From Isoetes taiwanensis (taxonomy: Eukaryota; Streptophyta; Lycopodiopsida; Isoetales; Isoetaceae): a DNA stretch of 64,000 nucleotides. Location: positions 62,001-126,000 of the forward strand of contig JAJEKV010000491.1 of NCBI GenBank assembly GCA_021234155.1, read 5' to 3'. This document shows positions 19,255 through 49,952 of the stretch, one piece after another. The notes below the pieces were generated by a model. The model did no database searches and was not told the origin of the DNA. It worked only from the letters and a program-made list of their open reading frames with translations. The translations under genes were made by a program, and so were the position numbers. How positions within the stretch are numbered: position 1 is the first letter of the stretch; the number at the start of each line of letters is the position of its first letter.

Positions 19255-19980
19255 AAAAAAATATATAATATGCTTAATTTTTTCCCTGGTGGAGATGCGA
19301 AAACCCTAGTTTTACAAAAACGCACTGATCCTATGCGCGTATAGGATGCCTATGCGCGCATAGGCACTACCTACCAGTCATTCTTTCGACCTATCTGGCG
19401 GCGTTCAAAGACGATATCACGGTCTCAAGGCATTATACCGATCAAGGCCATTAAACGACATACATTACAGCCGATCCGGTCGGCGTAACGACGGCGGCCA
19501 TCGCGCAAAGGGCGCCCTAGAGGGCAACTTGCAATGGTGCGCACACTTAGCAATGCGCGCACCCTTAGACCTTTAACCCATTAAAGGTAGACCAAGGGTC
19601 GTAGAAACCCTAAACCTAACTGATAGCCTACATAAGGCATCAAACCCTAACATTCCCTTTTTCGCCCACAGACCTTCTGAGCTCCGATTCGCACGCCTGA
19701 GGAGTCAATTCCAACTCCCACGATCTGCCTGTGCGCCCCAGCTAGTCAGATCTCCTTTCCGACCGCATCTCGAAGCAGAACTGCGACATGGACGCCTTCG
19801 AATTCAGAGGAGTGAACCAGGGATCAGGTATTTAGTTGATTGAATAGCCTAAACCTTATTCCAGCCTTCGAACCAGTAGGTTTAGCCTATTAAATCACCC
19901 CTATTAGCCAAGCTGATCCCGAGATTGACTCTAACTAAGGAACCTAACTCTATGAGATAGATTAGTTCTTTATTATATTA
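19255..19980 (+). mobile_element. Left part of a Ty3/gypsy 5' LTR, split by a Helitron
   Basis: The stretch from 19,500 to 19,980 aligns with the solo LTR at 40,887-42,541. Shared blocks are GAGGGCAACTTGC, GGATCAGGTATTT, CAGTAGG-TTAGCCTATT and AACCTAACTCTATGA-ATAGA. It stops exactly where a minus-strand Helitron begins (CTAG at 19,981). The missing right part is found at 36,403-37,330; together the two pieces are about 1.65 kb, the length of the intact solo LTR. The exact LTR start is uncertain (19,255-19,290). Confidence 0.75.
19788..19827 (+). other. 40-nt LTR leader exon with splice donor
   Basis: ATG opens MDAFEFRGVNQGS and ends at G|GTATTT, a plausible splice donor. The solo LTR has the corresponding 40-nt exon (41,416-41,455, MVELRSGGATQGS) with the same phase and donor. 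Joined to the AG acceptor at 43,468 it runs in frame into gag. Known LTR-element biology allows spliced gag mRNAs; this particular splice is inference. Confidence 0.55.
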
Positions 19981-20008
19981 CTAGAAAAAGTGCCCAGCGT
20001 TGCTGGGC
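19981..20008 (-). other. Helitron 3' terminal hairpin and CTAG end
   Basis: Stem GCCCAGC/GCTGGGC with an AAC loop, then CACTTTTT and CTAG on the minus strand. It belongs to the same family as the ends at 3,696 and 30,959. Confidence 0.85.
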
Positions 20009-20015
20009 TTTTGTG

Positions 20016-23570: not shown

Positions 23571-23579
23571 ATATAAATA

Positions 23580-24180: not shown

Positions 24181-24199
24181 TAGAACAATGTCCCCATAT

Positions 24200-27140: not shown

Positions 27141-27149
27141 AAAATGGGT

Positions 27150-28350: not shown

Positions 28351-28399
28351 ATGCCATAGAATTCATTTTTGTAGATTGCAAATTTCCTCCCATCAAAGA

Positions 28400-30930: not shown

Positions 30931-30931
30931 T

Positions 30932-30959
30932 GCCCAGCAACGCTGGGCACCATTACTAG
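30932..30959 (+). other. Nested Helitron 3' end, + strand
   Basis: Hairpin GCCCAGC-AAC-GCTGGGC (30,932-30,948), then ACCATTA and CTAG (30,956-30,959) followed by T. The body must extend leftwards; the matching 5' TC end was not located. Its orientation is opposite to the enclosing 16.4-kb Helitron. Confidence 0.8.
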
Positions 30960-31315
30960 TCACACAGAAAAAAATAGTCATCTCCCGGGGATTTTACCAT
31001 TAAAAATCCGTATCTAACATGTGCGTGACTGGTTAGGGGTTTTTTTTGGACCTCACCCGTTCGCATACGGTCCAAAAATTATACGGGCTTATGGCCAAGG
31101 AGTCGTAGGTGGTCGAGAAGGGGAAGATGGGCGGGAACGCCCATTCCCGTATCATACGGTGAGGCATTAGTCTTGAAGATCCGAGGCGCCATATCTTGTA
31201 TTAGCATGGAAGTTTAGGCTGAAAAAACATCCAGGTACGAATGCCACAAGCAGGTTTATTTTTTTCCCTTCCGGCTCCATAGTTTTGGATGTTTTCTGCT
31301 TCTTACAGATTGACA
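30960..31315. other. No gene; LTR-like G/C-rich patch
   Basis: Between the Helitron end and the ISCU fragment lies sequence with CATACGGTCC and ATCATACGGTGAGG, reminiscent of the TATACGG phrases of the gypsy LTRs. The similarity is too short to call an LTR. Confidence 0.35.
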
Positions 31316-31573
31316 ATGTTCGGTGTTGTGGCGAGAAGCACTTTGAAATCTGCTGCTCTTAGGAAGCTTAAGAGTCCCGGTGGTAACTTTCACAAGGGAA
31401 TATCATGAAACGGTCGTTGAGCACTACAACAACCCTAAAAATGTAGGTTCATTTGATAAAAACGATCCAAATGTTGGTACAGGACTTGTTGGCACACCAG
31501 CTTGTGGCGATCTGATGAGGCTTCAAATAAAGGTCGACAAGGTTACTGGAAAGATTGTCCATTCACGGTTCAG
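31316..31573 (+). pseudogene. ISCU/ISU1-like iron-sulfur scaffold gene, N-terminal fragment
   Basis: ISCU (ISU1 in plants) is the mitochondrial scaffold on which Fe-S clusters are assembled. ATG at 31,316 opens MFGVVARSTLKSAALRKLKS, a typical mitochondrial presequence rich in R, K, S and A. After one frameshift near 31,395 the frame gives YHETVVEHYNNPKNVGSFDK, then NVGTGLVGTPACGDLMRL and QIKVDKVTGKIVHSRF. The first cluster-ligand cysteine (PACGD) and the conserved NP-NVG motif are present. The second and third ligand cysteines are absent because the homology stops at 31,571. It is a truncated, frameshifted copy, fused to a golgin-like fragment. Confidence 0.88.
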
Positions 31574-31596
31574 CGAGATGTCTGACAGTTTCACAG
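31574..31596 (+). repeat. 23-bp direct repeat, left copy
   Basis: Starts CGAGATGTCTGACAG and ends TTTCACAG; identical to 32,873-32,895. It begins where ISCU homology ends and golgin-like sequence begins. Confidence 0.9.
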
Positions 31597-32825
31597 CGCC
31601 TGCCTCATCTTCATGCCGATTCTGTTGCTTCGCAGTCAGCTCTGGCTATGGAGCTTCATGCCCATTCTGCAACTCAGATCCAGGTGCTTACATTTACCTT
31701 ATTATGTTGAATTAATTATTCCAAAGAAAAGTGGTTCATTCCATTCATTTGGGCAGGAATTTGTTGAGTTCTATACTTTGTATTGCAGCTACAAATGAGG
31801 GAATCCTCATTACGTGCTGGGAATATAGCTTATGGAAAAGCTCTTGCAGCGAGGCAGCAGGAAGCTGAAGAGAGAGCCCAGGAAGTGCAGCATCTTGAGG
31901 CTGAACTACAGGTAAAAATGATGACTCTCCATGGATATGATGAATGGGATTTTCTCCATGGATATGATGAATGGTATTTGAAGATTGTGATCTGTATAAA
32001 TTATTTTCCTTACCATGTCTCAACATAGTGTTTTGAAGGTTATGACTTTTCAGAATGACTAACGTGCACCTTAAAATTCTAAAATGAATTTACTTATGAA
32101 TTTAAGACACCATCTCAGGCGTTGGAAGCATCTGCAGATGAAAGGGAGCACTTAGATTAGAAGTTCACACGATAAAGTTACCAGTGCCTTACTACATCTC
32201 TTCGTACTTCAAGTCATCTGTGTGTAGTCCACTGATATTGGGAGTCATTGGAAATTATTTGTAGTAGTGGGGCTGTCGACTGTACTTTCTGCAGCAATAA
32301 TGGAACGTGGTTCCTGCTCTACTCTTTCTTATATAGGGTCTTTTTTGCAGGAGCTTGCGGTCTTGGAGAAGAACTTGAATCAACAACTAGAGAATCTTAT
32401 GGACGAAGTGGTCGAAATGCACATGCACCAAGAGCCATTTCTTATCTCTTCAGAGAACATAAGGTCAGAAGAGCATGTGGAAAGAACAAGAGGTTCAAAT
32501 GTTACAAACTGAGCTTGTTAGTATCTTTCTGTGCATTATACCCCATTGTATGCGTATTTTGTTAATAGTCAAACCATGTAATGCTGTGGTTCAGGAAACT
32601 TGGCAAGCTAAAGTTGCTGACCTGCAGAAGGAGCTCATGACTGCAGAACAGAACTCTGCACAATGGCCTTCATCTGGTGATTAGACAAGTTTTGGTCCAC
32701 GTTTCCTCTGCAAAGTTTGCAAATTTATGACATGTTAATAAATTCTCATGTTTAGCTCAACGAGAAAAAGAGCTGGAGCGTCGTTTAAGGAGTTTGACAG
32801 AGCAGTTAATGGCTAAACAGGTAAT
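31597..32825 (+). pseudogene. Golgin-like coiled-coil gene fragment with introns
   Basis: Exon pieces with normal plant splice borders read as one coiled coil. The first exon ends at 31,682 (ADSVASQSALAMELHAHSAT). The second is 31,789-31,912 (LQMRESSLRAGNIAYGKALA onwards). The third starts at 32,119 (ALEASADEREHL). The fourth starts at 32,351 (ELAVLEKNLNQQLENLMDEV). The fifth starts at 32,595 (ETWQAKVADLQKELMTAEQN). The last ends in KQ|GTAATA at 32,820 (QREKELERRLRSLTEQLMAK). The last segment resembles the ELE-RLR-LT--L--KQ region of golgin-84 (plant GC1/GC2 type), a Golgi tether. An in-frame stop in exon three, a frame change near 32,480, and missing N and C termini make it non-functional. 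The family call is moderate. Confidence 0.55.
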
Positions 32826-32872
32826 AATAGAATGCAAATACTGAGGTTGCAAATAAAGTTGAGAGGTTGGCA

Positions 32873-32895
32873 CGAGATGTCTGACAGTTTCACAG
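32873..32895 (+). repeat. 23-bp direct repeat, right copy
   Basis: Identical to 31,574-31,596; it lies just after the last golgin-like exon, so the two copies bracket that fragment. Confidence 0.9.
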
Positions 32896-32899
32896 TTCT

Positions 32900-34700
32900 C
32901 TTTCTTAGGTTCCTTTTTTGTGCAAGGTAGTTTCTATAGGTTCTATAATGCTAAATTAAAATAAGGTTTTGGTTACGGTTGAAGGACAGAATATAGGTGC
33001 TTTATGCTATGTTAATCAGTGATTTCAAAGTGTTTAGTAACTAGGGCTAAGAACTGGGATAAACTGGTGGCAGAAGTGAAAAAGGAGGTGTGTTTCTATT
33101 CCTCTCGTTATTCCTCAAGTTTACTTATTTTTCTGTTCATTTATTTCTCTATTTGTTCCTGCAGATGCACGAACTTTGTTGGATTGGAGGACAATGGTGC
33201 TTTGAATAGGCGAATCATACCGTGGAATCATAATTGTAAGGGATGAGCATATGTTCAAGTTGTTGGTGCATATAGTGTTCTTAATTTTTGCTTGCAAAGA
33301 ATGGGAACTAAAATATATGCAGTTAGTTGCTTTTGCACAACGCAAGCAGCACATCTTTGTATTTTAGATTTGCCTGTAATTGATTATCAACACTTCACAG
33401 AATAGACTGAGCAATCAAAATTTGCTCCTCATGTACATAGGAAATCTATCATGCTCCTTGAGAGCAATTTCATCAGTATATTGCTCTGCCATCTCAACGG
33501 GTAAATTCATCTCTTGAAACAGCTGAGTTGCTATACATCCACCAATTAAGAATTCAGGAGACAGAGATGCACGACATGTGCACTAGCTAACAGGCTGCAA
33601 CCCATAAATTATTTCACGGTATTTCATGGAAGGAAAGGTCCATGCTTGATTGAGTATGGAGTTCTGTACAAGATTTGTTTATCAAGATGATACTTCAGTT
33701 TTTAAATACTATATCATTTGTAAGACTGCATTCACAATCATTATATGTTTCAATTTGTTTCCCAAATGGTCAATTAAAAGCACCACAATTTCCTTGGGTT
33801 GACCATTGTAATTGCTATGATTGTGTCTATAGTGAAAGGTGCATGCGACCACAAAATAAGACCAATAGTGGAAGGTCCAATCAAAGGGGTTATGAATGCC
33901 ATTATGATCATAATGCTGCATGCAGAATTGGGGCTCGAAACCCGATTAATTAGGCAAATTACCCTCTTATATGCCATATATTTTATTATGGGGTCCAGTA
34001 CAATAAATGGTATGAAAAAGAATTTGTATCGATGTGTAGTCAAATACTTAAGACAGTTGATGCTGAAGGATATTCCAACATTTGCTTACCACTTGGATAA
34101 TTTGAAAACAATCCACTAGTTTATCCTTCAAATAGTTTAGACATTCCTAAACCCATATGCATTCTACAACCCCGTCTACAACCCTATACATTCTTACAAC
34201 TACAATGATCCCGGCAATGATTCAACATAAGGGACACATGCAATGAAAATTCTTGCATCTTAAGAGATAGATGCAATAGAGTCTTAACCAACGAGACCAG
34301 TTTAGACCGAGAATGAAGATGCGAGAAATGTCTATTAAACACTGTGAAATTTTTTTCCTTCTCCACAAACCATTTTTTTCTCTGAATAAGGCTACGGCAC
34401 AAACTCAAGTACAAGATGGGGTAGGGGTATGTAAAACGTAAAATAGTCCGGGCGTATATCTACGGTAGGGGGCAGGGAAACTGGGTTTTCCTATTTACGT
34501 ATGTAGGGGTTTTCGACCTCCAAAAGTCGTATACGAGGGGTTTTCTGGTGACCCCTTGCACGCACATGAGGTATCCCCATGTGCCTAGGTGAAGTCCCCG
34601 GGAGTCATCTCACCTTGTCCCTACCAGATTTATGTAATCTAAATCTCCAAATGTAATTGATTGACCTACTTGTTCAGAAGTCTCTGATGGCTGTAGAAGA
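32900..34700. other. No gene recognised
   Basis: Mostly A/T-rich. A short coding-like piece near 33,050-33,090 (RAKNWDKLVAEVKKE, followed by GTGTGT) could be one more golgin-like exon. G/C-rich sequence at 34,430-34,620 looks repeat-derived, but I cannot assign it. Confidence 0.4.
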
Positions 34701-34720
34701 AACAAAAAACGTGTAAGCAA

Positions 34721-35225
34721 AAGTCCCAAGTCTGTAGTTTGCTTTTGATGTAGTGTCCTGCGAATCAAATAGCATGCTACTGATTTTTTAAAATATCAAA
34801 TGCTACTGAAGTCCCAAGTCTGTTGTTCGCTTTTGATGTGAAGTCCTGCAAATTCTGAAATAAAGGCTCAGAAGGTTGAGAATATGACTCTGATAAAGCA
34901 CTTCGACTTTCGCTTCTTGATCTAGCACACTTTCCAGATTTGTTTATGGATATTGTGAACCTGTTTAAATAGTTATGCAATTGTCAGAGACCGTTCTAAT
35001 ATAAAGAAATTTGGAGTAAAGAGAAGGGAGCAGAATATATCTCAAGCATTTCACTTGAGATTTGGCACCAAAAGTATTTCTGATGGCACCAAGAACTACC
35101 GTTATCCATAGATTCTGATAAACCTAATAACACAGTAATACAAAAAGGATCACCTTCTCAAAAGGGAAAGTCCCAAGTCTGTTGTTCGCTTTTGATGCCA
35201 AGTCCTGCGATTCTTGGAATATGGG
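34721..35225 (+). repeat. Dispersed repeat unit, three copies
   Basis: The unit AAGTCCCAAGTCTGTTGTTC, followed by GCTTTTGATG and a GTCCTGCGA-like tail, starts at 34,721, 34,808 and 35,167. The sequence around copies two and three is also partly shared (GGGCTCAGAAGG or GGCTCAGAAGG). Confidence 0.75.
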
Positions 35226-35597
35226 CTCAGAAGGCTAAGTTTCAATTGCAGGTCCGTTTTGAAATGGAACTTGAAGGTAGTGAAGCCCGATATGTGGTTA
35301 GAACTTTAGCACAATTGGAAAAGCTAAAATCTATTCTTCACAGTCCCAATTGCAACCTGCAGAGCTTGAAAATAAATTTGGATAATGTGATATATTGGGA
35401 TGGATCCCCCCTACAATCTTTCTGCGAGGACGTAGCAGTTGCACTTCTCAGGGGGCGATGTGGTGGACTTTGGGATCTGGATCTTTCACATGTGTATCTT
35501 TCGGATTTGGATCTGGATCTTGCAAGGAGAATGCTATTCCTGACACTTCAAGCATTTTTGAACATGATAATGCTTTGTTTATATCATTTGGAATAAA
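35192..35597 (+). pseudogene. Coding-like fragment, unidentified
   Basis: An open frame with natural-looking composition follows an intron-like CAG border at 35,251 (VRFEMELEGSEARYVVRTLA, then QLEKLKSILHSPNCNLQSLK). I recognise no domain. It sits inside the Helitron and may be another captured exon. Confidence 0.3.
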
Positions 35598-35626
35598 AGA
35601 AATCTCTTTCTTGTAAAATGCATCAT

Positions 35627-35956
35627 TCACTTAGCATCATCAAGAGATAGGCATTTTTGGACATGGGACTGGAGTGTTTTGACGGAATTATCAACGGAAA
35701 CATGAATGCCAACTTTGTACATAACTATATCTTGTTCACCAATGAGATATAGGGATCCCTTTATGTCGCAATCCTCACTTCTATCCAGGCCACTTTCATC
35801 GGACTCAACATAAACCCATTCGCCAGCTTCAATTTCACAGAAAAAATCATGCTTAGAACCTGTATTCTTACTGACATTTTCAATCTTAAAGGCATGAAAT
35901 TCGCTAGGTGTTCGAATTTTCAACCTCACGCCAGAAACAAAGAATAAGAAAGGCAT
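35627..35956 (-). pseudogene. Coding-like fragment, unidentified
   Basis: 109-codon minus-strand open frame with mixed composition (for example EFHAFKIENVSKNTGSKHDF and GSLYLIGEQDIVMYKVGIHV). No known motif. It could be a captured exon in the sense orientation of the Helitron. Confidence 0.3.
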
Positions 35957-36402
35957 GTGCTTTTACTGCATCTTGCGCTGCCATAGAGTATGCTTGGCTA
36001 GAAATCTTTGCACTGGAGTCCAAATAGAGGAGGAATTAAAGAAAAAAGCCATGCACAAAAAGCTACATTGGCAAGTCGACAGTTGCAGAAAAAAATAGAA
36101 GCGCTGGCCAACTTTCTTCCAGACCAGTGCCAAATTCCTAGGGATGCATACCCCCGAATTGAACAGAGTAGAAATATCTCAATCTCAATAAAAATATCTC
36201 AACATGTTGGACGGAGTTGGTGTAATGCAATATCGAGGGTTTTTTCCAAGAAAAAGCCTCGCAAGAAAATCTGTCACGGTTTCTTCTGCATATAACGTCT
36301 TTTGCCTTTCCCAAATCCTCAATCTCAACCATCTATCTACATCAACGGTTCAAAATTGAAATTGATGACAAACACTCAAAATCCCTTTAGTATAAAGAAA
36401 GA

Positions 36403-37330
36403 TTATGTTGATATGATGGACGGATGGATTCTGTGAACTCATTGTATTGGGAAGGGGGGTAGAGACTTAAAGCTTAGTAGATGATGCTCCTAGTTAGTCC
36501 CTCTTAGTGCATTACTAGAATTCGGCCTGTGCACAGGAGCCCACCTGGTTGTGGGTGAAGGGGCCAGACTGGCTTAGAATGAGGTTCGTGTTCTGACCCT
36601 CGACCGATCCCTCTGGTGTGTAAGGCCTACCGGGGATCAGAGTGACTAGGTCTAATGGCTTACCACTGAGTGTGGGTAAGGCATGGACTCGACACCCGTG
36701 GGGTGGTGTTCACCTTCCAGTGGGTTAAGTCGAATAAGGGCAGTGGCCCTCTAGTCACCTTGGGTCAGCATGTAGATCTCTGGAGGGAGCGATTCCCTAC
36801 CTGCCCCATCGGGACTGGGGAGATGTAACCCAGGAATAGCCCCTTTGGCTATGCACCCGGCGGGCTACAGTCAGGTCCCAACACTTTTCAACCTACTCTG
36901 CAAAGTGTGTACAGGAGGGGCGGATGGAGTGGACAACCCTAAGCCATGTTCTTATGCCAGCCCAATCCATTGTCATGAATTCTGTCTGCACTGAATTCTG
37001 GAGACCCAAGCTTGTCAGTCATCCCCCTGGAGTCTGAGCCTTGGGTAGGAACTTCCTTGTATTGTGCTGATCTTTGTCTATGCAGATGTTGATGTGCCAC
37101 CCTTCGAGGTGGATATATGATGCTATGTTACTGACGTGTATGTTTACGCTTCCGCAGCTAGGTAGGCCCTGAGGAAGACGGGGTAAAATGACCCCTTCAC
37201 TCTTCCCGCTGTGGACTCTAGACGGTCACAGTGATATGTGGAGGGCCCCCAGATCGGCGTGGAGTGGTGCGGGGGATGAACTCCTGTTTGTATACGGTGC
37301 GGGCATCGTATACGAGTAGGGGACGTCACA
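36403..37330 (+). mobile_element. Right part of the Ty3/gypsy 5' LTR
   Basis: Aligns with about 41,612-42,541 of the solo LTR: TTGTATTGGGAAGGGGGGTA, CTAATGGCT-ACCACTGAGTG, GAGGGGCGGATGGAGTGGAC and the end GTATACG-TAGGGGACGTCACA. It ends in CA one base before the primer binding site. The left edge coincides with the proposed 5' end of the Helitron, so this is the displaced right half of the LTR begun at about 19,255. Confidence 0.85.
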
Positions 37331-37331
37331 A

Positions 37332-37343
37332 TGGTATCAGAGC
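37332..37343 (+). promoter_or_regulatory. Primer binding site for initiator Met-tRNA
   Basis: TGGTATCAGAGC, the standard plant LTR-retrotransposon PBS complementary to the 3' end of initiator tRNA-Met, one base after the LTR end. Confidence 0.95.
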
Positions 37344-37535: not shown

Positions 37536-37602
37536 GTCTCACAGCTCGCGCCTGGTCGAAGAACTAAACTTTAGTTTTTGAGCGAGGCGCAAGCTGTGAG
37601 AC
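37536..37602 (+). repeat. Hairpin repeat 1 (upstream of H3-like unit)
   Basis: 67-nt imperfect inverted repeat. An outer stem GTCTCACAGCT pairs with AGCTGTGAGAC, GCGCCT with AGGCGC, and an inner AACTAAA with TTTAGTT. Four copies occur in the element, in two pairs about 190-200 bp apart, each pair ahead of a TATA box and a histone-like frame. Confidence 0.9.
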
Positions 37603-37725
37603 ATCGAGCCAAGATCACTCAAACATGATGAATTTGAGAAAACTAATGTGGTAAGGCTAGTTCTAAGATAGGAATTAATTAGAATAGCATGTTTTAATTG
37701 CTTAAATTACTTAAAAATGTGTGAG

Positions 37726-37792
37726 ATCTCACAGCTCGCGCCTGGTCTAAAAATTAAACTTTAGTTTTTGAGCGAGGCGCGACCTGTGAGAC
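37726..37792 (+). repeat. Hairpin repeat 2 (upstream of H3-like unit)
   Basis: Second copy, 190 bp after the first, same design with a few mismatches (ATCTCACAGCTCGCGCCTGG at the left arm; ACCTGTGAGAC at the right). Confidence 0.9.
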
Positions 37793-37894
37793 CAATAAGT
37801 AGAAAAAGTCTGAAATAAGTGTAAGTTTTAACTAAATAGGTGCCTTACAGTGTTAAAAAGACCAACTTGAATTTTGACCTAAAAATTTGCCAAG

Positions 37895-38004: not shown

Positions 38005-39339
38005 ATGGCACGGACCAAGCAGACTGCGAGGAAAGCCCGCCCAGGCGAAGCAACCAGCGCCCTTGATTCCAACACGATTCGGCGCATGCTTCAGGAGCGC
38101 CTTCTTGACCCCAACGGTCAACCTTCTTCGAGTGAGGGAGAACCCTCAAATGAGCGCAATAGTGGAGGATCCCAGCAGAGAGCACCACAGGACGAGGAGG
38201 TAAGCCAGCACTCGTATGCCGGGACAGAGCTGATTGACGAAGAAGAAGAAGAGGAAGTAGCAAGCCGGGAGAGGAGAACCAAGACCCGAGAGGAGCAGAG
38301 GATGCCGACTCCAGAGCCGACCATTGAGGAACAAGTTGAAGCCTGGATTCGAGAAAAAGAGGCGGAGGAGCAGCAAGAGCAGAGCGAGCCGAGGCTCAAG
38401 CCGGCAGAGGAAGCAGACCTCGCTGCTTTTATCAGGAAGTATGAACGCCGAGAGAGGAAAAGAGAACAAAAGAAGAGGAAGAGGGAAGAAGAGGAGCAGA
38501 AAGCGGCCGAGGAGCTCAAGAAGAAGAAAGGGAAATGGGTGGGGAGCCCCAGGAAACTCAAGGAAGTCCCCATGGTGAAAAAGCCCAACCCCAAGATCAC
38601 CATTACCGAACGCCCACCCGATCAGCCCCCGGCCTCCTCAGAGGATTCTGACGAAGAACCTAACCCCAACACAGCAGGGGCAAGTTCTTCCAAACCCCCG
38701 GTTGGCCGAAAGGTGTTACCGCTGGAGTGTAGTGACCGAAAGGTGTAGCCCGAGGAGGAGCAAAGAGACACGCTGAAGAAGCCCTCCTTACCCGAAATGG
38801 GACAGGAAGAAGCAACCCCGGCCTGCTCGGGAGTCCTATGTAACTAACCCCGTTAAAATCTACGAGCGAAAGATGCGGGAGCATGAGGCCTATATGAAGG
38901 AGTGGGAGGCATACAACTCCTACTACCAGGAGAACAGGGTCAGGACCATCGAAGGAGGACACCCAACCAAGCAGCAGACCCTAAGACCGCCACCACCAAA
39001 GCCCAAGGTCCCGAAAAAGCCCGCCTGTAAGAAGCTCACCGAGGAGAAGCGGCTCGAGCAAAGAGCACTACGGGAGATTCGGCACTTCCAGCGCAGCTAT
39101 GGCCTCCTGATTCCCCGTGCCCCCTTTGCTCGGCTAGTTAGAGAAGTAATGCAGGATTTCGGGGCCGGACTACGTGGTCCGCGGATGAGATGTTGCTTGC
39201 ACTACTGAAGAACCGGAAAGCGTAAGATAGTGCAACACTTTGAAGACTCAACGGCTTACCTTTGTCCATGCCAAGTTTAGTGACACCGATGAGGCAAGAT
39301 ATGCAACTTGCTACTCGCATCAAGGGAGAGCGACCCTGA
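38005..39339 (+). pseudogene. Retroelement-encoded histone H3-like protein, frameshifted
   Basis: Start ATG at 38,005 gives MARTKQTARK, identical to the histone H3 tail up to K9; then ARPGEA replaces STGGKA. About 240 residues of linker follow, acidic near residues 75-85 and rich in K/R/E charged coil later, with no H3 counterpart. After a frameshift near 38,770 a basic proline-rich stretch leads into a histone fold at about 39,062: ALREIRHFQRSYGLLIPRAP and FARLVREVMQDF correspond to H3 ALREIRRYQ and FQRLVREIAQDF. Continuing through three more frame changes, FEDS, LC-HAK and QDMQLATRIKGERP end at the TGA at 39,337, matching the H3 C terminus. The order, spacing and both ends of H3 are kept. 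Known: H3 packages DNA in nucleosomes. Inferred: a captured H3 with an expanded tail, expressed by the element; this copy is broken. Confidence 0.9.
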
Positions 39340-39483
39340 ACATTTTGTAAATAATCGAAATTTTTTGTAATATAGAACAATTTTGAGTACTTTAATTGTC
39401 TGAACTTGCTTAATTAGGACAAGTTAGCAGGTTTTAGCTTTTATTTTAGTAAAACAGGACATTTACAGACCGAAAGGCGTGAT

Positions 39484-39549
39484 GTCTCACTGTAGTGCAC
39501 GGTCAAGAAACTAAACTTTAGTTTTTGAACGAGGCGCAAGCTGTGAGAC
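39484..39549 (+). repeat. Hairpin repeat 3 (between the two histone-like units)
   Basis: Third copy; left arm partly diverged (GTCTCACTGTAGTGCACGG), core AACTAAACTTTAGTTTTTG and right arm GAGGCGCAAGCTGTGAGAC kept. Confidence 0.9.
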
Positions 39550-39683
39550 CTTGCCCAAAACTTGCCCAAAACAGCTCCAAATTGACCAAATAAGGGGTCA
39601 ATTCTACCTAATTTGATGAGCCCATCATCCTTACACCCTTAATTTACCCAAATTGGACACGTTTTAATCAAAATGGGACTGAT

Positions 39684-39750
39684 GTCTCACAGCTCGCGCC
39701 TGGTCAAGAAACTAAACTTTAGTTTTTGAGCGAGGCAAAAGTCATGAGAC
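39684..39750 (+). repeat. Hairpin repeat 4 (between the two histone-like units)
   Basis: Fourth copy, 200 bp after the third. The left arm is intact (GTCTCACAGCTCGCGCCTGG), the right arm has decayed to GAGGCAAAAGTCATGAGAC. Confidence 0.9.
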
Positions 39751-39940
39751 CTCCTACCATTTCTTCACCAGAACTTGCCCGAATGATCTTCAACCTGTTG
39801 AATAGCATCTTTAGGTAATCCAGCCACACTCAAACACTTGAACTAGTCTTCAAATTCCCATTTTGACCTCAGTATAGACTAGAATTGCCCAACCCCAGGA
39901 ATTTTCCAAGTCATCCAAAAAATTAGGGTTTCCCCCTTTT

Positions 39941-39950: not shown

Positions 39951-40886
39951 GTCCCTCATTTCACACATAGCACCCTACAAGTTTGCTCCTGCCTTCTTAG
40001 CCGATTTTCCAACTCCCTGAGGCGCTCTTGCAACCGTTTGATACCCTCTTCCGCATTTAACCAATGGCAACCCTCGATTTTTCGCGGATGGTACGGCACC
40101 GGTAGCTCATCTTTGCCGAGGCCGACATCGACCAAATTTTCCATGTCTTCAGGAAGGAGGTAGATGTCCAAGCAACTTTGCACGCAACCCCAGCTTACAG
40201 TAGAGTCCTGTCTGAATTCCAAGCTAGGGTAGAACCAGCACTAGTGCAACTCCCACCTTGCATAGGTTACTTTGTTCCTAGGCAATCCCAATCCACATAG
40301 CGACTTTAGGTGATGTTCCAAACATTGCCAAGTACGACAAACAAAGGCATAGCGACGCGCCGAGAGCCAATGGTCCTAAGCGTCAATAGGACCAAATATT
40401 TTCTTTCAACACTTGCCTTGGCAATTTTTCTTACCCATCGCTACGAGAACAACGTGGGAGAAACCTCCATTCCCCATGGACGTGGACCCATTAGCCATAG
40501 CAAAGACGGAACAACGACTCCTTACGCAATATCTGAACGAGAGCGGGGAAGAAAAGAAGAGGAGGACTCAGAAGAACAGGAATCAGAAGAGGAGGAAGAC
40601 TACGTCGAGCTCAACCCAGCGGAAGAGTGGCGACAAGCAGAACAAGAGTGGCAAGACTTCGAAAGAAGCCGCCAAACTCTTAGAGTCGCGCCGCCCCTTG
40701 GGCTAGGCATTACAAGCCTAGCCCCCATCATTGTCGAGGGCGAAGAATTTTTGCTCCTAAGCGACATCCAAAACCTCCCGTAGTGCAGGGAAAGGGAGTA
40801 TCGAGCTGAAGAGTTGCTGCACCAACTCCGAAGAACGGACCTGGACGACTTCATCGTCCGAGGAGCCTCCGACTTCCCACTCCAAG

Positions 40887-42541
40887 TGTGACGTTCCAGC
40901 ACAGTATACGGTCCCAGGACGTATACTGTACTGCCCCATCACGCGTACACGCCACTCCGACTGACGTGTACGCCGACGTATAGCCAAGTGGGTAGCCCCT
41001 AGGGGGCAACTTGCTAAGAATGAGTGCATTGGCATTAATGTGCACACTTACCAATGTACACATTAATGTGGGCACACATTTCCACATGGACACTTTATGC
41101 CAAGTGGGCCATACCCATAGGTACAATTAATGTGCACATTTTCCAATGTGCACATTCATTAATGTGCACACATTTCCATGTGAGCACAAGTGGGTGCACA
41201 CATTTCCATGTGGGCACATTTGGCCACCTAGCCCTTAAAGGCAAGTGGGCCCTTTTCCAATTATCCCACATGCCAAAAGGGGATAATTGGGAACCCTAGC
41301 CAACCCCCTTGTCTATTTAGGGAGGGAAACCCTAAATCACCCAATTTTCGTTTCTAGGGTTCCAGAGCTCTGTTTTGGCTGCCTCAAGAGCCCTTGATTC
41401 GAGCGTTTCAGCAGGATGGTCGAACTCAGGTCAGGAGGAGCCACTCAAGGATCAGGTATTTGGCCAATTAAATAGTCTCAACCCTGTTTCAGTCATAAAA
41501 TCAGTAGGGTTAGCCTATTTAATTGCCCATAGCAGCCTTCTAGATCTCTAGATACCAGACTCTAACTAAAGAACCTAACTCTATGATATAGATTAGATAT
41601 AGTTCTTTAGTTCTCCTGTGATGTATATGGATGATGTATCTCTATGAACTCCTTGTATTGGGAAGGGGGGTAGAGACCTAAAGCTTGGTAGTAGATGCTC
41701 CTAGACTAGCCCCTCTAGCACCATATAGATTCGGCCTGTGTACAAGAACCACACCTGGTTGTGGGTGAAGGGGCCAGACTGGCTAAGAAGGGGGTTCATG
41801 TCCGGACTCTTGAACGATCCCTCTGGTGTGTAAGGTCTACCAGGGATCATTGTGATAGGTCTAATGGCTCACCACTGAGTGCGGGTGAGGCATGGACTCG
41901 ACACCCGTGAAGTGGTGTACACTTTCCAGTGGGTTCAGTCGAATACGGGCAGTGGCCCTCTAGTCACCTTGAGTCAGCATGTAGATCTCGGAGGGAGTGA
42001 TCCCTTCACGCCCCATCGGGCTGGGAGGATGAAACCCGGGAATAGCCCTTTTGGCTATGCATCCGTGCGGGCTCTGATCAGTCCCGACACTTTTCACCTA
42101 CTCGCAAAGTGTGCACCCGGGAGGGGCGGATGGAGTGGACAACCCTATGCCATGTTCATATGCCCCCAATCCATTGCCATGAATTACATGCGCAATGAAC
42201 TCACGGAGACCCAAGCCGTCGGTTATCCCTCGAAGTCCGAGCCTTGGGTAGGACTCCCCCATATGTATTGTGGCCGATCATTGTCTATGCGGATGTGATG
42301 TACCACCCTCCGGGTGGATATATGTGTTGCTCTTATATACCGACATGTATGTTTACGCTTATGACTAGGTAGGCCCCGAGGGAGGCGGGGTAAAATGACC
42401 CCTTCACTCTTCCCACTTTGGAACCCCGCTACGGTTTGCGGTGTCATGTGGAGGGCCCACAGATCGGCATGGAGCTGGTATAGGGGGAGAACTCCTGTTT
42501 GTATACGGTGAGTGCATCGTATACCAATAGGGGACGTCACA
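40887..42541 (+). mobile_element. Solo LTR, 1,655 bp, with CCAAG target duplication
   Basis: Begins TGTGACG and ends CGTCACA (TG...CA with a 7-bp inverted end). It is flanked by CCAAG at 40,882-40,886 and 42,542-42,546. It is homologous to the split 5' LTR of the surrounding element and so comes from a related, later insertion that lost its internal region by LTR-LTR recombination. Removing it and one CCAAG restores the reading frame of the interrupted unit. Confidence 0.95.
41416..41455 (+). other. 40-nt LTR leader exon with splice donor (solo LTR copy)
   Basis: ATG, frame MVELRSGGATQGS, then G|GTATTT. Same length, phase and donor as 19,788-19,827, although the encoded residues differ, which argues that frame and donor are under constraint in the family. 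Confidence 0.6.
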
Positions 42542-43289
42542 CCAAGTAAGGGAAGCCGACACTTACACGGGAGAGTCGACCTCCGACATCCAAGCCTACA
42601 GCAACATCAGGCAGATGATGGAGGCAGACCAGGCCGCAAACCAACTGCCGACGGAGGAAGAGTTCCTTGCTCTACATGAACAGATGGGGATCCGCCACGC
42701 GACATCAAACATCTTAACGGCAAGCTCTTGAACGCTTCCCCTGAGAGAAGAGGCGAAGTTGACCCTCGGGAGAGCTTCAAAGAATGTCGAGACTCTGAGG
42801 AGCTCACCCGCGGTAGAGAGGTAGATGACTTTGAGGCGGGAACCACGGACATTTGGATGCCGAAAGTGGCGAGGATCATCCACGCAACGCCAACATTGTG
42901 TCGTTCGCGGTATTACCCCTGGCGACGGATGGAAGAATAGCGGTAATTCACCGCAAATTCACCCCCAGAGGCGAGGAAGGAGTATCGATGCTAATTGGCT
43001 CTCGAGGATTTGGCCGGCATCTTGGGTTACCCTCAACACCGAGTATGCCATCCTGGTGAAGAGAGCGGTAGCACTCGATGTTTTCGACTTCGCCATACCT
43101 TACAGGCGGCAGGGAAGACTGGCGGTGACCGCAACTTATACCTCCGACCGCAGAGTGGAAGACTTGGCGAGAGCTTTGCAGGGTGGATCTTCAGTCAACG
43201 TCCTTAGGAACTTGGGTCATTCAGTGGGAACAGCCCAAGTGAAGAAGTTCCTAGAGGACAATCCATCCTACCGGCGACATCAAGAATAG

Positions 43290-43468
43290 TTAGCAATCTT
43301 GATACCGGAAGTCTTTTGTAGTAAACATATTATATAATATGAATATAACTTCTTTGTATTTTTAAATGTTTTGTTGATATATTTTGTTCCGCAACTATAC
43401 CAACAACACATATAATGCAACAGAACAAACAAAACTAACCGTACAACCATGACCAATTGTGTATGCAG
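43290..43468 (+). promoter_or_regulatory. A/T-rich segment ahead of gag with probable splice acceptor
   Basis: Pyrimidine-poor but T-rich stretch ending TGTATGCAG at 43,468. An acceptor here would join the LTR leader exon (G at the donor) to AA AGG GAA, giving GAA AGG GAA in frame with gag. No ATG in the gag frame precedes the conserved part of gag, which supports a spliced start. Confidence 0.5.
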
Positions 43469-44368
43469 AAAGGGAACAACGCAATCGAGACAAAAAACAG
43501 AGGCCCAACAGAGATGAAGAAACTCCTGACAGGCAACCCCTTCAAAGGAACCTCTTCGAGGGATATGGCCCCATGACACTCGAAGAAGAGTTGTCGCAGA
43601 TGCGAACAGACCTGGACCAAACAAAGGCCCTACTAGCAGCCCAAGCATCAGCCGGGCTACAAGCGACACCCCGAAAGTCGGGGAAAGACAAGAAAAGGAG
43701 TAAGAGAAGGAGGTCCCCTAGCACAGAGACCTCCGAATCAAGCTCAACCTCGGACTCTGAGTCCGAAAAAGAGGCCGAGCAGGCGCCGGACCGTAGAGAC
43801 GGCAGGCAGAAGGACACTAAGGCCCTGGATTACCAGAAGAAGGTGGATCAGCACTGGGCAATGTGTGGAAAGCCCGGAAACTCGAACAGTTCTCGGGCGA
43901 GAACAGATCCGGCTTAGAGGCGGAGGCATGGCTGGACGAAATGAGTGAGTACGGCAATGCCTATGGCATGAAGGACAAAGACAAAGGCAGGGTGGCGACA
44001 GCCAACCTGAAAGGAGCCGCACGCATATGGTGGAAGGGCTATGCCAAAGCCCATGGGGAAGCAGGGACGCATGCCGATTTAAGAAGTTCTCAAAAGCTTT
44101 CAAGAAACACTATGTTCCTCGGGAACACAAGTCGAACATGATGCAGCAGGGGTACAAGATGGTGCAGAAGTACACCGAAGAGTTTATGAGACTAAGGCTA
44201 TATGTGCCAAAGCTGAGCGAGAAACACGCAGTGGAAAGCTACATAGAAGGACTGAACGAGGAACTCAGGAAACTCGTAAGGGCAATAGACCCCAAAACAG
44301 TGTCGGAAGCAGAATCCAAAGCAATTAGTTTGCAAGGATCCGAACAGCAGAACAGCACACAAAGATAG
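43469..44368 (+). pseudogene. gag of Ty3/gypsy element, frameshifted
   Basis: Three overlapping frames (to 43,917; 43,863-44,141; 44,027-44,368). The N-terminal part is charged with a coiled-coil-like stretch (MTLEEELSQMRTDLDQTKAL) and a serine/acidic region. The capsid core shows FSGENRSGLEAEAWLDEM, a tryptophan-containing segment (AARIWWKGYAKAHG) and EFMRLRLYVPKLSEKHAVES with YIEGLNEELR, the retrotransposon gag family pattern. Gag forms the particle around the RNA. The true start is probably supplied by the spliced LTR leader exon. Confidence 0.85.
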
Positions 44369-44485
44369 CCTCACTATCAGGATAGAGGCAAAGCAACAGG
44401 GAGCTACAGTCCGAGGGCAGCCAGCCCAAGCCCAGCCAAGTCCCCATATAATAGCAACCAGGGGAGACAGCAGGAAAGAAAGCAG

Positions 44486-45175
44486 GTGTCCTTCAAGGAC
44501 AAACAGGAAGGTTCCAACTACTCGAAAGCAGTACGATCCTTCTTACAGGCGATGCCCAAGGAGAAAAGGCAGGAATGCATAGAGAAGCAGTTCTGCTTTA
44601 GATGTTTCCAGCCGGGCCACCGAACGGCGAACTGCCCATTTGTTATGAGCTCAGCACTAGCAGAATTGGGCGGATGGGACACTCCATCAGACGAGGACGG
44701 CGAGGAGGCACGCGATTACATTCAGGGTGAGTGCCACATCTTCGCTGCTATAGATACAGAACAAGCAGAGACCCAGTATAAGGTAATCACCACAGTAGGG
44801 AAGGCAAAGGCCAAGTCCTTCATAGTCTTGATAGACTCTGGAAGTAGTCATAACTTCGCATCCCCGAGGATGGTTGAAATGTTGAAATTGAAACCCCTAA
44901 AATCCAAATCAAGACCCGTAATCTTGGCAAGCGGGGCAGTAAGACATACAGCCGGGAAGAGAATCAACTTCGACATTGACTTGCCAGGGATTAATATCCA
45001 GATGGGGGCAGAAGTAATGGGCATTGGCAAATACGACTTGATCGTTGCAATGGAGTACCTTGGACCAGCAGGGACCATCATCGATTGTGGAAAGCGGAAG
45101 GTGACCTTCCCAACGCCCGACGGCAAAGCCATTGAGATCACAGGTAAAGAAGTTACCCCCATCATGATCCGTTAA
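44486..45175 (+). CDS. Zinc knuckle and aspartic protease part of the polyprotein
   Basis: Open for 229 codons. The zinc knuckle is CFRCFQPGHRTANC (CX2CX4HX4C), the nucleic-acid-binding end of gag. It is followed by a retropepsin-like domain with catalytic VLIDSGSSHNFASP (D-S-G), a central strand (RPVILASGAVRHTAG) and IVAMEYLGPAGTIIDC, matching the WL-LGP-DVILG region of gypsy proteases. The frame stops at 45,173 and pol continues in shifted frames. Confidence 0.88.
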   Translation: MSFKDKQEGSNYSKAVRSFLQAMPKEKRQECIEKQFCFRCFQPGHRTANCPFVMSSALAELGGWDTPSDEDGEEARDYIQGECHIFAAIDTEQAETQYKVITTVGKAKAKSFIVLIDSGSSHNFASPRMVEMLKLKPLKSKSRPVILASGAVRHTAGKRINFDIDLPGINIQMGAEVMGIGKYDLIVAMEYLGPAGTIIDCGKRKVTFPTPDGKAIEITGKEVTPIMIR

Positions 45176-45179
45176 GAAG

Positions 45180-46640
45180 CTGCTCAAATCTATAAAGAGC
45201 GAGAAGGTAGCATACATCTTCAAACTCGAGATTGAGGAACCTGAGTCGGAAGGAAGCAAAGAGGACAAGGTGCTCAGCAAGTTGCCCAAGCCAATCGCCA
45301 ACTTGATTACGGAGTTCCACGATCTCTTTCCAGATGAGATCGAGAAGCTTCCTCCTTACAGGGGAGTAGAGTGTGAGATAGCACTCGAACCAGGGACCAA
45401 GCCGACGAGCAAGGCCCCATATAGAATGACCACACACGAACTCACGGAGCTAAAGAAGCAGCTACAAGAATTGCTTTCGATCTAGGCTTCATCCAAGTGT
45501 GTCTCACCATTTGGGGCACCCATCCTCTTTGTCAAAAGAAGGATGGAAGCTTGAGGATGCATAGATTACGACAATTGAACAAGCACACCATCAAGAACAA
45601 GTAATGCACTCCCCGTCGGGACGACTTGATGGACCAGCTCAAAGGGCAAAGGTCTTCCAAGATCGACCTAAAAGGTCAGGTTATCACCAGATCAGAATTA
45701 AAGAAGAGGACATCCACAAAACGGCTTTTTAGGACCGGATATGGGCATTACGAATTCACCATAATGCCATTTGGGCTATCAACGCTTTCACTACGTTCAT
45801 GAGACTCATGAAGCGATATCTTCGAAGAGAATACTTGGACACTTTTGTGATAGTATTCTTCGACGATATTCTGGTGTACAGCAAAACCATTGAAGAGCAT
45901 GTACAACACGTAAGAAAGGTGTTCCAGAAGTTAAGAAGGCATCAGTTGTACGCCAAGTTGTCGGGCGCCACCGCGAAAGAGAAGGTGGAATACCCGGTCC
46001 GCGTGATTTCAGCGAAGGAATCTCGACTGCACCGCCAAGATTGAAGCAATAATCCAATGGCCGGCACCAAAGAACGCCCATGAGGTCAAAGTTTTTGGCC
46101 TAGCGGTATTACGAGGAAGTTCGTGAAGAACTTCGCAAAGATAGCAGCCCCACTGACAGACTTGACAAAGGCAGAGAAAGTCAAAAATTGGGCAGACCAT
46201 TGGTTCAAGAAAGCCCAAGCAGGATTTGAGTTGTTGAAGGAAGCTTTGACAACCGCCCGCCTTGACCCCCCGACCGGACTTTAAAAGGACAAGTTAGTGG
46301 CTTACGGGACGCAAGCAAGATAGCATGTGCAGTGCGATGCGATGCAAGAAGAGCGGGTAATAGCGCACGACTCAAGGAAAATGAACGACGCCAAAACGCG
46401 CACCGACGCGATGATCAAGAGCTGCTAGCAGTTGTCGCATGCGTTGAGAATCTGGAGGCATTACCTCTTAGGGAGGAAATTCCGGTTTGACACCGATCAC
46501 CGAGCCTCCAAAGACGTATTCACGCAACCACATCTCAATCTGAGGCAGAGAAGGTGGATGGAATTTCTCGAGGAGTACGACTTTGAGATAGTCTACAAAC
46601 CCGGGAAGCTTAATGTGGTAGCAGATGCGCTTTCAAGGCA
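45180..46640 (+). pseudogene. Reverse transcriptase and RNase H, broken
   Basis: RT starts with LITEFHDLFPDEIEKLPPYR, then GTKPTSKAPYRMTTHELTEL, the usual gypsy RT entry. The palm region is disrupted by stops between 45,480 and 45,790. MPFGLS near 45,770 and [12 protein letters not shown] (45,849-45,885) hold the catalytic YXDD-type motif in the gypsy form FDDI. RNase H follows: FDTDHRASKDVFTQPHLNLR and RWMEFLEEYDFEIVYKPGK, then NVVADALSRH, the family-typical end. At least four frameshifts or stops make it inactive. Confidence 0.9.
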
Positions 46641-47870
46641 TCCACTGACAACCAGAGTGCACTGCAACGCAATCTCAACGCTCTTCAGCGATTTCGGGAA
46701 AAAGATAGAAGAAACCTTGCCAACGGATGTGGACTTCAAAGAAGTATGGGCAAGCTTGTCCAAGGAAGCGAGAACGGACAAGGAGAGAGAAACCTTCAAA
46801 AACTTTAAAAAGGAAGGTAACCTCCTATACCATAAGAACAAGTTGTGTGTGCCGGAATCATCTGGAGTAAGAAAGTTGATCCTCCACGACACCCACAACA
46901 GCCCAATAACTGGCCACGCAGGATTCATGAAGACATATTTCAAAGTGCGTAGCAGCTACTATTGGCCAGGAATGAAGAAGCGATAGCTCGCCACATCAAG
47001 GAGTGCCGCCTATGCCCGAAAAGAAAAGCGTAACAACTTCAATTCCGGTGCTTTGGAACCATTAGCTGTACCAAACGCTAAGTGGGAGGTCGCAAAGATG
47101 GATTTTATAACAGGACCGCCAAGAACAAAGAAGAGGTAAGGATGCCTTGATGGTCGTGGTCGACAAGTTGTCGAAGATGGCCCATTTTGTGCCTTGCGGG
47201 GACCACGGACACGACTATGGACACGGACGAGCAAAGCTCTTCACCAAAGAGATTTTCGGACTTCATGGCATGCCAAGGGAAATTATCTCCGACCGAGATC
47301 CGAAGTTCATCGATTGCCTTCGGCGGATCCCTTCACAACGATTGGAACGGCTATCCATGAGCACGGCCTATCATCCCACAGACGGATGGGCAAGCGGGAG
47401 TGTCAATAGAATTTTGGAAGACATGCTCGAAACTACGTCTGGAACAAGCAAGGTATGTGGGAGGAATTTATTCACTTGGTGGAGTTTGCATACAATAGTA
47501 CCAAGCGGGGAATCATCCCAAATGTCGCCATTCATGATCAACTACGGCTACCAATGCGACTCGCACACTTGGCACAATCCGTGTCAAAAGTGGAAGTCTC
47601 CCAACAAATGTTGGCGACATGCACGGCGGCTTCGTAGAAGAAGTGCGGGGATATCTCCTAGCAAAGAAGGAGTCGTCAAAAGAGCATCGCCGACAAGCAT
47701 CGAACAGTCAGGCAGTTTGAAGTTGGCGACAATGTGTGGCTCAAGATCAAGGTGAAGCAGGCGAAGCTCCGCATCGGGAATTGCAAGGAACTTGCTCCAA
47801 GGTGGGCTGGACCCTTCAAAATAGTCAAGAGAGTGGGTAACCAATCCCTACGAGGTTAGACTTGCCAAAG
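46641..47870 (+). pseudogene. Integrase, broken
   Basis: The N-terminal zinc-binding region includes RKLILHDTHNSPITGHAGFM and TYFKVRSSYYWPGMKK (H-H part of the HHCC fold). The core begins after a frameshift with MVVVDKLSKMAHFVPC (first catalytic D) and EIISDRDPKF (second D). The third acidic residue is expected within TAYHPTDG...VNRILEDML. In this copy the DGQ-ER-N motif reads DGWASGSVN, so the glutamate is not in place. Frameshifts occur near 46,985, 47,150 and 47,640. Confidence 0.85.
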
Positions 47871-47898
47871 ACACTTAAAGATCCACAAAGTCTTCCAC

Positions 47899-48201
47899 GT
47901 GAGTTTGCTGAAGAAGCACACTCCCAACCCAGATGAAATCCTGGACACCCCAACGATGTTGGAAATGACAGAGGAGCAGTTGGAAATAGTTCCAGAGCTA
48001 ATTCTTGACAAAGCATTCAAGAAAACAAGGAGATCAGAATTCCTCCAATACTTGGTTAAGTGGAAACACTTGCCGGTGGAAGACGCGACATGGGTACTTA
48101 AAAGAGATCTAGAAAAACAGTACCCACAGTTTATGGAGCAATGGGACGGCAAGGTCATCTCCGAAGAAATTGGCTCAGGCATGTCGATTTGTATAGATTA
48201 A
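47899..48201 (+). CDS. Integrase C-terminal chromodomain
   Basis: Ends the polyprotein with PELILDKAFKKTRRSEFLQY, LVKWKHLPVEDATWV and a C-terminal helix LEKQYPQFMEQW, the chromodomain pattern (aromatic cage residues, VKWKG-like turn, ATW). In chromoviruses this domain steers integration to heterochromatin, commonly through methylated histone H3. In this element the same genome also encodes an H3 tail with the ARTKQTARK sequence, which is a potential ligand. Confidence 0.9.
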   Translation: MSLLKKHTPNPDEILDTPTMLEMTEEQLEIVPELILDKAFKKTRRSEFLQYLVKWKHLPVEDATWVLKRDLEKQYPQFMEQWDGKVISEEIGSGMSICID

Positions 48202-49110
48202 CAGCTTGCCTAGTTAAGTATAATCTACGCATGCAACCTATGAAGTAAGGGTTGCATGCGTTGTAACTGATGATGAGATTACTACGGTGATCTCTAGGAC
48301 GTGGTGTAATGTCAATGTAGGCATGACCGCGGTGCCGCTTGGAAAGTCTACTTCTGTCCTACGGAAGTAGACAACCTCGAGAGAAAGGAGGTCATTGAGG
48401 AATGCATTGATAGGAAAAGCACCTCTAGCCCCATATATGCTTTGATAGGAGGAATCTGGCCTTCACGCCCCATATACGGGAAGGACCTATCCTCCACGCT
48501 GGGCAACTAAAGGTGTAGGCATGAGTGGCATATAGGCATATAGGCGCTATCTCCTCGGCCATAATGGAAGATTCACCCTCTTCCTACGCCGAGAGATTAG
48601 CCATGCATCCATGTAGCTAGGTGGGGTGGTCACCATATAACCAAAAATTTTATTTAATATTAATGGTACTAACGTAGTGTTGACCTGCAGGCCAATAGAG
48701 CGCTCCGGAGGGCCAGGAGGTCGAACTACGAAGACTTGCAACACAATTTTGTTGTAATGTGTTGCAAGGAATAAAGAGTACCTCGAGCAATAATTGTATA
48801 TATAATAATAAACCGAAACATTAGGATAATGACATAAGTGATAACCATTGGATTGGATAATAGTATAATAATGTTCTATAAATATTACCTTGAGGTAATC
48901 CTATTAAAATAACAATAATAATAAGTATGTGGTATGCATGAGGTTGATTGCAGGTTAAGAAGATCCCAAGGTGGGGAGACCCATGATGCTGCGGACAGCA
49001 TCAATTCAAGGTCGTAAGCTCTGATTTAGATATACGCATTTAGGCAAGCAATATTTTTAAAAGCTCTTTTTACGATTCTTACACAAAACCTTGGGTTTTC
49101 GGAAGAACCT
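48202..49110. other. 3' region of the element; no 3' LTR recognised
   Basis: No match to the LTR end motifs (TGTGACG, TTGTATTGGGAAGGGGGG, GGGGACGTCACA) is visible here. The stretch has a G/C-balanced part to about 48,780, then becomes A/T-rich. The LTR is lost or the element is cut. Confidence 0.5.
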
Positions 49111-49921: not shown

Positions 49922-49952
49922 TCATTAGTGCGTTTGCACCGTCACCTTGTTT
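49922..49952 (+). repeat. 31-bp element shared with 16,454-16,484
   Basis: Identical to the minus strand of 16,454-16,484 and immediately upstream of the transposase homology. Confidence 0.75.

Follow-up and report, generated by a model that had tools for sequence, protein, structure and literature searches.

The locus analyzed here raises the question of how an open reading frame that begins with the exact N-terminal tail of histone H3 and ends with segments of the H3 fold came to lie within a plant retroelement, and whether the element makes use of it. The locus belongs to a stretch of 64,000 nucleotides from Isoetes taiwanensis (assembly GCA_021234155.1, contig JAJEKV010000491.1, positions 62,001 to 126,000 of the forward strand), which we refer to as the window. 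In a previous sequence-only reading of the window, it was proposed that a Ty3/gypsy element had captured a host H3 gene, with a chance insertion of a single H3 pseudogene as the alternative.

The H3-like gene, which we call ORF1, starts with the ATG of MARTKQTARK at position 38005 of the window, and its last TGA ends at 39339. In the window copy, the gene is broken by a TAG at 38746, a frame change between 38745 and 38873, and a TGA at 39206. The frame 38777-39205 contains ALREIRHFQRS...FARLVREVMQDF, and the remainder, as judged by eye, is formed by two different frames up to 39339, with FED...LC followed by QDMQLATRIKGERP. The MARTKQTARK start and the H3 segments in H3 order are present in the window as first described, and the long charged linker that separates tail and fold is found both there and in the copies with open frames. 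The middle frame alone matches the Pfam Histone family at 3e-10 (positions 38996-39175) and H3 proteins in the PDB at 5.5e-9. Since the likeness of ORF1 to H3 persists in a profile search, it is not due to chance.

The element around ORF1 is a decayed Ty3/gypsy chromovirus, in which ORF1 is situated between the primer-binding site and gag (Table 1). The assignment to Ty3/gypsy in the earlier reading can thus be made more precise, and the gag, protease, reverse transcriptase (RT), RNase H, and integrase domains were detected in the Ty3 order by Pfam and tblastn in the window and in other copies. The primer-binding site TGGTATCAGAGC is presumably complementary to the initiator-Met tRNA. Two later insertions disturb the window copy, namely a solo LTR in ORF2 and a 16.4-kb insert in the 5' LTR. 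The latter splits the LTR at about 19979-36404; we take its ends (a hairpin with CTAG at one end and TC at the other) to be Helitron-like on the minus strand, and its ORF at 31380 presumably resembles an iron-sulfur scaffold protein. The pair of LTRs that was seen first had been considered as a small non-autonomous element, and this was rejected since the second LTR is complete at both ends, is flanked by a target duplication of its own, and is not followed by a primer-binding site. The 3' LTR of the window element was sought by comparison with the genomic copy L027 and was not found in the window.

Table 1. Features of the ORF1-containing element in the window
Feature	Position in the window	Strand	Remarks
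5' LTR, 5' part, separated from the 3' part by the 16.4-kb insert	19508..19981	+	89% identical to the adjoining LTR stretch of L027
5' LTR, 3' part, ending ACGTCACA	36405..37330	+	92.4% identity with the L027 LTR
Primer-binding site TGGTATCAGAGC	37332..37343	+	same 12-mer in 17/20 copies
Two 70-nt hairpins before ORF1	37536-37605, 37726-37795	+	
ORF1, first part: MARTKQTARK tail, then A, charged linker	38005..38745	+	open frame; TAG 38746-38748
Second frame of ORF1, covering the linker end and the alpha-N and alpha-1 helices of the fold	38777..39205	+	TGA 39206-39208
Decayed end of ORF1 (C-terminal part of the H3 fold), split between frames	39209..39339	+	segment kept open in other copies
Two 70-nt hairpins after ORF1	39483-39552, 39684-39753	+	
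ORF2 remains, with a solo LTR inside	40063..43289	+	start aligned to MATSDF... in other copies
Solo LTR inserted into ORF2, from the LTR family of the element, with target duplication CCAAG	40887..42541	+	
Gag-pol in a decayed state, comprising capsid, CCHC, protease, RT, RNase H, integrase, chromodomain	43459..48201	+	
Chromodomain at the end of the integrase	47989..48147	+	PF00385, 4.8e-11
Match to L027 DNA just before its 3' LTR	48842..49012	+	comparison with L027

We searched the I. taiwanensis assembly (1,658,258,908 bases in 1,110 contigs) with the fold piece of ORF1, which matched at least 150 places with E-values from 4e-72 to 4e-45 and 74-100% identity (all 150 places scored, from 7,204 first-look candidates). 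Likewise, a 20-base degenerate codon pattern for EIRHFQR, with one mismatch allowed, had 1,086 matches in the genome versus 10 for the reversed control. Twenty of the 150 places, representing what we call family A, were retrieved as 10-kb stretches picked for long open frames, and as a result of this selection all 20 copies have an open frame of 446-492 aa that extends into the H3 fold. The exact 12-mer of the primer-binding site is located upstream of ORF1 in 17 of the 20 copies, while ORF2, the gag capsid, and RT are located downstream in 18, 16, and 15 copies, respectively. In the sole copy for which both LTRs were compared (L027), these are 96.2% identical over 1,461 bp, with TG...CA ends and the duplication CTGCC. 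Since ORF1 occupies the same place and order across the copies, it belongs to the element. A lone insertion does not describe this pattern, and ORF1 is almost certainly not a stray pseudogene but a gene that resides in a chromovirus family of high copy number.

Counted from the start codon, ORF1 encodes 419-450 aa in eight family A copies, compared with about 136 aa for core H3. The protein of copy L031 (444 aa) is composed of the tail, a linker with predicted long helices, and a complete C-terminal fold of H3 type, which matches H3.3 in the PDB at 4.3e-29 over residues 318-443 and the Pfam Histone family at 1.5e-28. The ORF1 linker is highly charged. The stretch preceding the fold may in part be a worn H3 tail, as hinted by the PDB alignment of L031, which begins at H3 residue 11. 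The family A fold aligns with the host H3 without gaps, 45-53 of the 89 residues being identical (excluding copy L021, which has a four-codon deletion). A set of H3 residues that we take to be contacts with DNA or between H3 and H3' is mostly retained: R49, R69, R72, R83, C110, and K115 are kept in all 32 copies compared, and H113, A114, R116, T118, D123, L126, and I130 in 30-31 of them. Within the same presumed set, P takes the place of R63 in all 32 copies and R or H that of K64, while no more than 20 copies retain R129.

At the other end of the protein, residues 1-9 of the core H3 tail ARTKQTARKS are kept in family A and S10 is replaced. MARTKQTARK is exact in 13 of the 20 copies; the others include one with ATA in place of ATG, three altered tails (MAQ..., MVR..., and MARTKQTTRV), and three that could not be aligned. 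Sixteen of the 20 copies keep the K9-x-R-P-G context, and in these the residue after K9 is A (10 copies) or P (six copies) and never S. The loss of S10 pointed out for the window, where the residue is A, is hence a property of the family. Structure prediction contributed little. The full-length AlphaFold model (pLDDT 57.7) had no histone found by fold comparison, and a second model (pLDDT 59.0), which had host H3 in its input alignment, matched H3 with a TM score of 0.36 and E-values of about 3e-5 to 1e-4, nearly all of the 50 matches listed being nucleosome-bound or octamer H3. Both models are poor.

We calculated dN/dS by the Nei-Gojobori method for copies preselected for open frames that reach the fold. 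For the fold, the ratio was 0.110 in 33 family A copies (pooled pN/pS 0.158, bootstrap 0.104-0.222). For the tail, the ratio was 0.042 (0.037/0.879) in the 18 alignable rows of 21, taken without a tail filter; this recomputed value replaces a ratio of 0.023, for which the copies had been chosen by their tail. The RT core, used as a control, had a ratio of 0.044 (0.033/0.746, 12 copies), so the constraint on the tail is close to that on the polymerase core, its codons varying while its residues stay. The corresponding ratios were 0.24 for the linker and 0.21 for the pre-fold stretch (14 copies). Thus, in the comparison across open-frame copies that the sequence-only reading had suggested, the ratios for tail and fold are far below 1. 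Both parts are under purifying selection, and their conservation suggests that the element really uses the histone. In favor of ORF1 as a passive passenger, an H3 copy that drifts while being multiplied along with the element, one could point to the broken frames of the window copy and of many others, and to the hitch-hiking H3-like copies described for fungal hAT elements (PMC6710886). We consider this extremely improbable, because dN/dS in both parts is well below 1, with the tail as low as RT, and two sister families keep ORF1 in the same place.

The sister family, family B, was recovered by a search with a plant H3 sequence, in which 150 places were scored out of 9,022 candidates. These included 15 full-length host H3 genes (96-98%) along with 135 other places, many with frames of more than 400 aa, of which we sampled six. 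In these six copies, ORF1 is 409-420 aa long and has a different N terminus (MAITK..., MANIK..., or MANTK...), without the ARTKQTARK tail. The fold is identical to the host H3 in 76-77 of 89 residues and matches the Pfam Histone family at 8e-41; its dN/dS is 0.027, and that of the N-terminal 200 codons is 0.081. In the one family B copy that was followed downstream, ORF2, gag, pol, and the chromodomain stand behind ORF1 in the family A order. The two families are 79.8% identical over 321 aa of RT, 73% over 225 aa of integrase-chromodomain, and 53% over 134 aa of gag. Both have ORF2 between ORF1 and gag, with 26% identity (L033:4744-6168 and L051:6893-7951), and ORF2 had no Pfam family above the cut-off in the window or in the family A and B copies. 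Altogether, the H3 fold is the part common to families A and B, and the exact tail is special to family A.

We tentatively propose, with a probability of roughly 0.45, that the histone encoded by the element is taken up into nucleosomes and there tethers to chromatin an N-terminal module specific to the element. We infer that translation of the first ORF in the element RNA yields the ORF1 protein, which would pair with host H4 and become part of nucleosomes, either on host chromatin or on the newly made DNA of the element. The N-terminal module would thereby be held at chromatin, where it could help direct integration or influence what chromatin forms on new copies. The family A tail, with K4 and K9 but without S10, could also be methylated free of the phospho-switch. 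The proposed anchor is consistent with the conserved layout across copies, the low dN/dS of fold and tail, the mostly kept contacts, and the gapless fold, and with family B, which combines another N terminus with an even better H3 fold. Against it stand the replacements of R63 and K64 and the incomplete conservation of R129, the poor AlphaFold models, the preselection of the copies for open frames, the broken window copy, and the seven of 20 tails that are not exact MARTKQTARK.

The tail could also be viewed as the active part of a histone mimic or decoy, which together with the fold would sequester H3-H4 chaperones, readers, or the methyltransferases for H3K4/K9 and so allow the element to escape heterochromatin formation. 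The conservation of ARTKQTARK by selection while its codons vary, and the absence of S or T at residue 10 wherever the context survives, are in agreement with such a role, and decoys for chaperones would need the fold alone. However, family B has no such tail and its fold is under stronger constraint, which argues that the tail is not the common function and makes pure tail mimicry a weaker general explanation. The mimic or decoy is therefore doubtful, and we favor the chromatin anchor over pure tail mimicry because the fold is common to both families whereas the exact tail occurs only in family A. A role in the cytoplasmic particle, where the H3-like protein would use its basic linker and fold to bind the element RNA or cDNA together with gag and not act in nucleosomes, would suit both the same-strand position of ORF1 immediately ahead of ORF2 and gag and the highly charged linker. 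This role appears unlikely, as a protein that binds nucleic acids generically could do without the H3-H3' residues and, in family A, without the exact H3 tail.

The two families differ in the grouping of their folds. In a tree with H3-like database proteins, family B was placed with the host H3 (94/88), and family A formed one clade (98/95). In AU tests on this tree, the grouping of A with B was marginally rejected (p = 0.043) and that of A with the host was rejected (p = 0.032), while A, B, and host together were not (p = 0.19). When three plant CENH3 folds were included, the grouping of A with CENH3 was not rejected (p = 0.405), those of A with the host and of A with B were (p = 0.0006 and 0.0005), and that of A, B, and host was not (p = 0.085). 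The trees are based on 89 columns and have long branches. The capture of a host H3, as originally proposed, fits family B in identity and grouping, but for family A the host grouping was rejected in both trees. The family A fold may be derived from CENH3, and the trees would be accounted for either by two histones captured or exchanged in the sister elements or by a very fast change of the family A fold. A plain CENH3 identity of the family A fold was not upheld, as loop 1 is of H3 length in families A and B and lacks the CENH3 insertion.

A fold of CENH3 origin could take family A elements to centromeric chromatin. The residues LIPxAPF, F54, L119, R121, and M124 in family A are CENH3-like by comparison with CENH3 sequences, and the unrejected single clade with the three plant CENH3 folds, along with the rejected host grouping, points in the same direction. 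Centromere targeting is nevertheless very unlikely in view of the H3 length of loop 1, the canonical H3 tail, the H3-like fold of family B, and the presence of matches on many contigs. Of 19 candidates from a protein database search with the fold piece, 12 were divergent H3-like proteins (81-189 aa), and none of these 12 has the length or layout of ORF1. When ORF1 was read through, the protein database gave nothing at E <= 0.001 (46 and 5,262 candidates), and among viral contigs there were seven pattern matches, none of which was confirmed. The metagenomic H3-like proteins P0001, P0004, and P0005 have an extended loop 1 and have the stretch LLIPRAPFARLVREVMQD in common with family A.

The element chromodomain was identified in copy L052 (PF00385, 5.8e-11), and its motif is also found in L021 and in the family B copy L051. 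Based on a by-eye alignment of three element chromodomain sequences to HP1, only the middle W of the three aromatic cage residues is kept. As type I chromodomains, which read methyl-lysine, have all three cage residues (PMC3350952, PMC6317226), we classified the element chromodomain as type II. With its cage residues missing, it is unlikely to read the K9-methylated tail of the element's own histone in the usual way. The partners of type II chromodomains are described as not identified in PMC6317226, and ORF1 represents a candidate partner. One may go further and suppose that the two sister chromoviruses make chromatin of their own, family B from a canonical H3 and family A from a canonical tail joined to a CENH3-derived fold, and that the element nucleosomes dock the element's own integrase via the type II chromodomain; we regard this extended scheme as quite unlikely.

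No retroelement-encoded histone was named among the literature matches listed, which covered titles and abstract beginnings on retroelement and viral histones, extra ORFs, and chromodomains, subscription papers and preprints being outside this set. Ty3/gypsy elements of Phalaenopsis carry an ORF for an AlkB m6A demethylase and resemble the Isoetes element in being high-copy plant Gypsy elements with an extra host-derived ORF that bears on epigenetic control, but they encode an enzyme whereas the Isoetes element encodes a histone (PMC9289625). In the screen of 121 angiosperm genomes, no histone is among the extra domains named in the main text (PMC9289625). Plant LTR retrotransposons with additional sense ORFs likewise have an extra ORF beside gag-pol; however, the reviewed sense ORFs are located between pol and the 3' LTR, while the Isoetes ORF1 precedes gag, and in the available text of this review the word histone is absent and no such element with a histone is described (PMC7264820). 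H3-like sequences are also present in fungal hAT DNA transposons, including 784 copies in Pseudocercospora fijiensis; these copies are mostly truncated and RIP-damaged, with premature stops, although putatively functional ones are reported for Pyrenophora tritici-repentis (PMC6710886). The capture and amplification of an H3 coding sequence is common to these transposons and the Isoetes element, but the former are DNA transposons, and no fused long ORF comparable to ORF1 was seen in that account (PMC6710886). Histone-encoding DNA viruses (PMC9145170, PMC11500106) similarly represent foreign genomes with a core histone but are DNA viruses, and the terms retrotransposon, retrovirus, and retroelement are absent from the available text of the review of viral histones (PMC9145170).

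If ORF1 works as a histone, a reverse-transcribing element would supply a core histone to host chromatin or to its own DNA, and this would open a direct way to study how chromatin is selected and modified by retrotransposons. Family A constitutes a natural experiment on the H3 tail, in which K9 is kept, S10 is removed, and the remaining tail is replaced. In practical terms, the element protein may be among the targets of antibodies against the H3 tail and among the genes annotated as H3 in Isoetes.

ORF1 is bracketed by two hairpins on either side (Table 1). The four hairpins are near-identical, with energies of about -28 to -46 kcal/mol, and all four are present in the window and at fixed places in 16 of the 20 family A copies, the other four copies having two or three. 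No such hairpins were found in seven family B stretches, which contain little upstream sequence. Over 46 sequences, 92.1% of cells pair, compared with 90.0% in shuffled and 26-47% in slid alignments. There is some covariation: the number of cells changed on both sides was 28 versus 16.2 in shuffles, but the pairs with such changes numbered five, no more than in shuffles (4.5). The hairpins may have a role in translation, splicing, or packaging, or may be a trace of the gain of ORF1.

Elsewhere in the window, the ORFs at 56965-57615 and 49929-50603 resemble by eye transposases of the pogo and MULE types, respectively, and a tandem array with about 83 copies of a 19-bp unit occupies positions 14034-15602.
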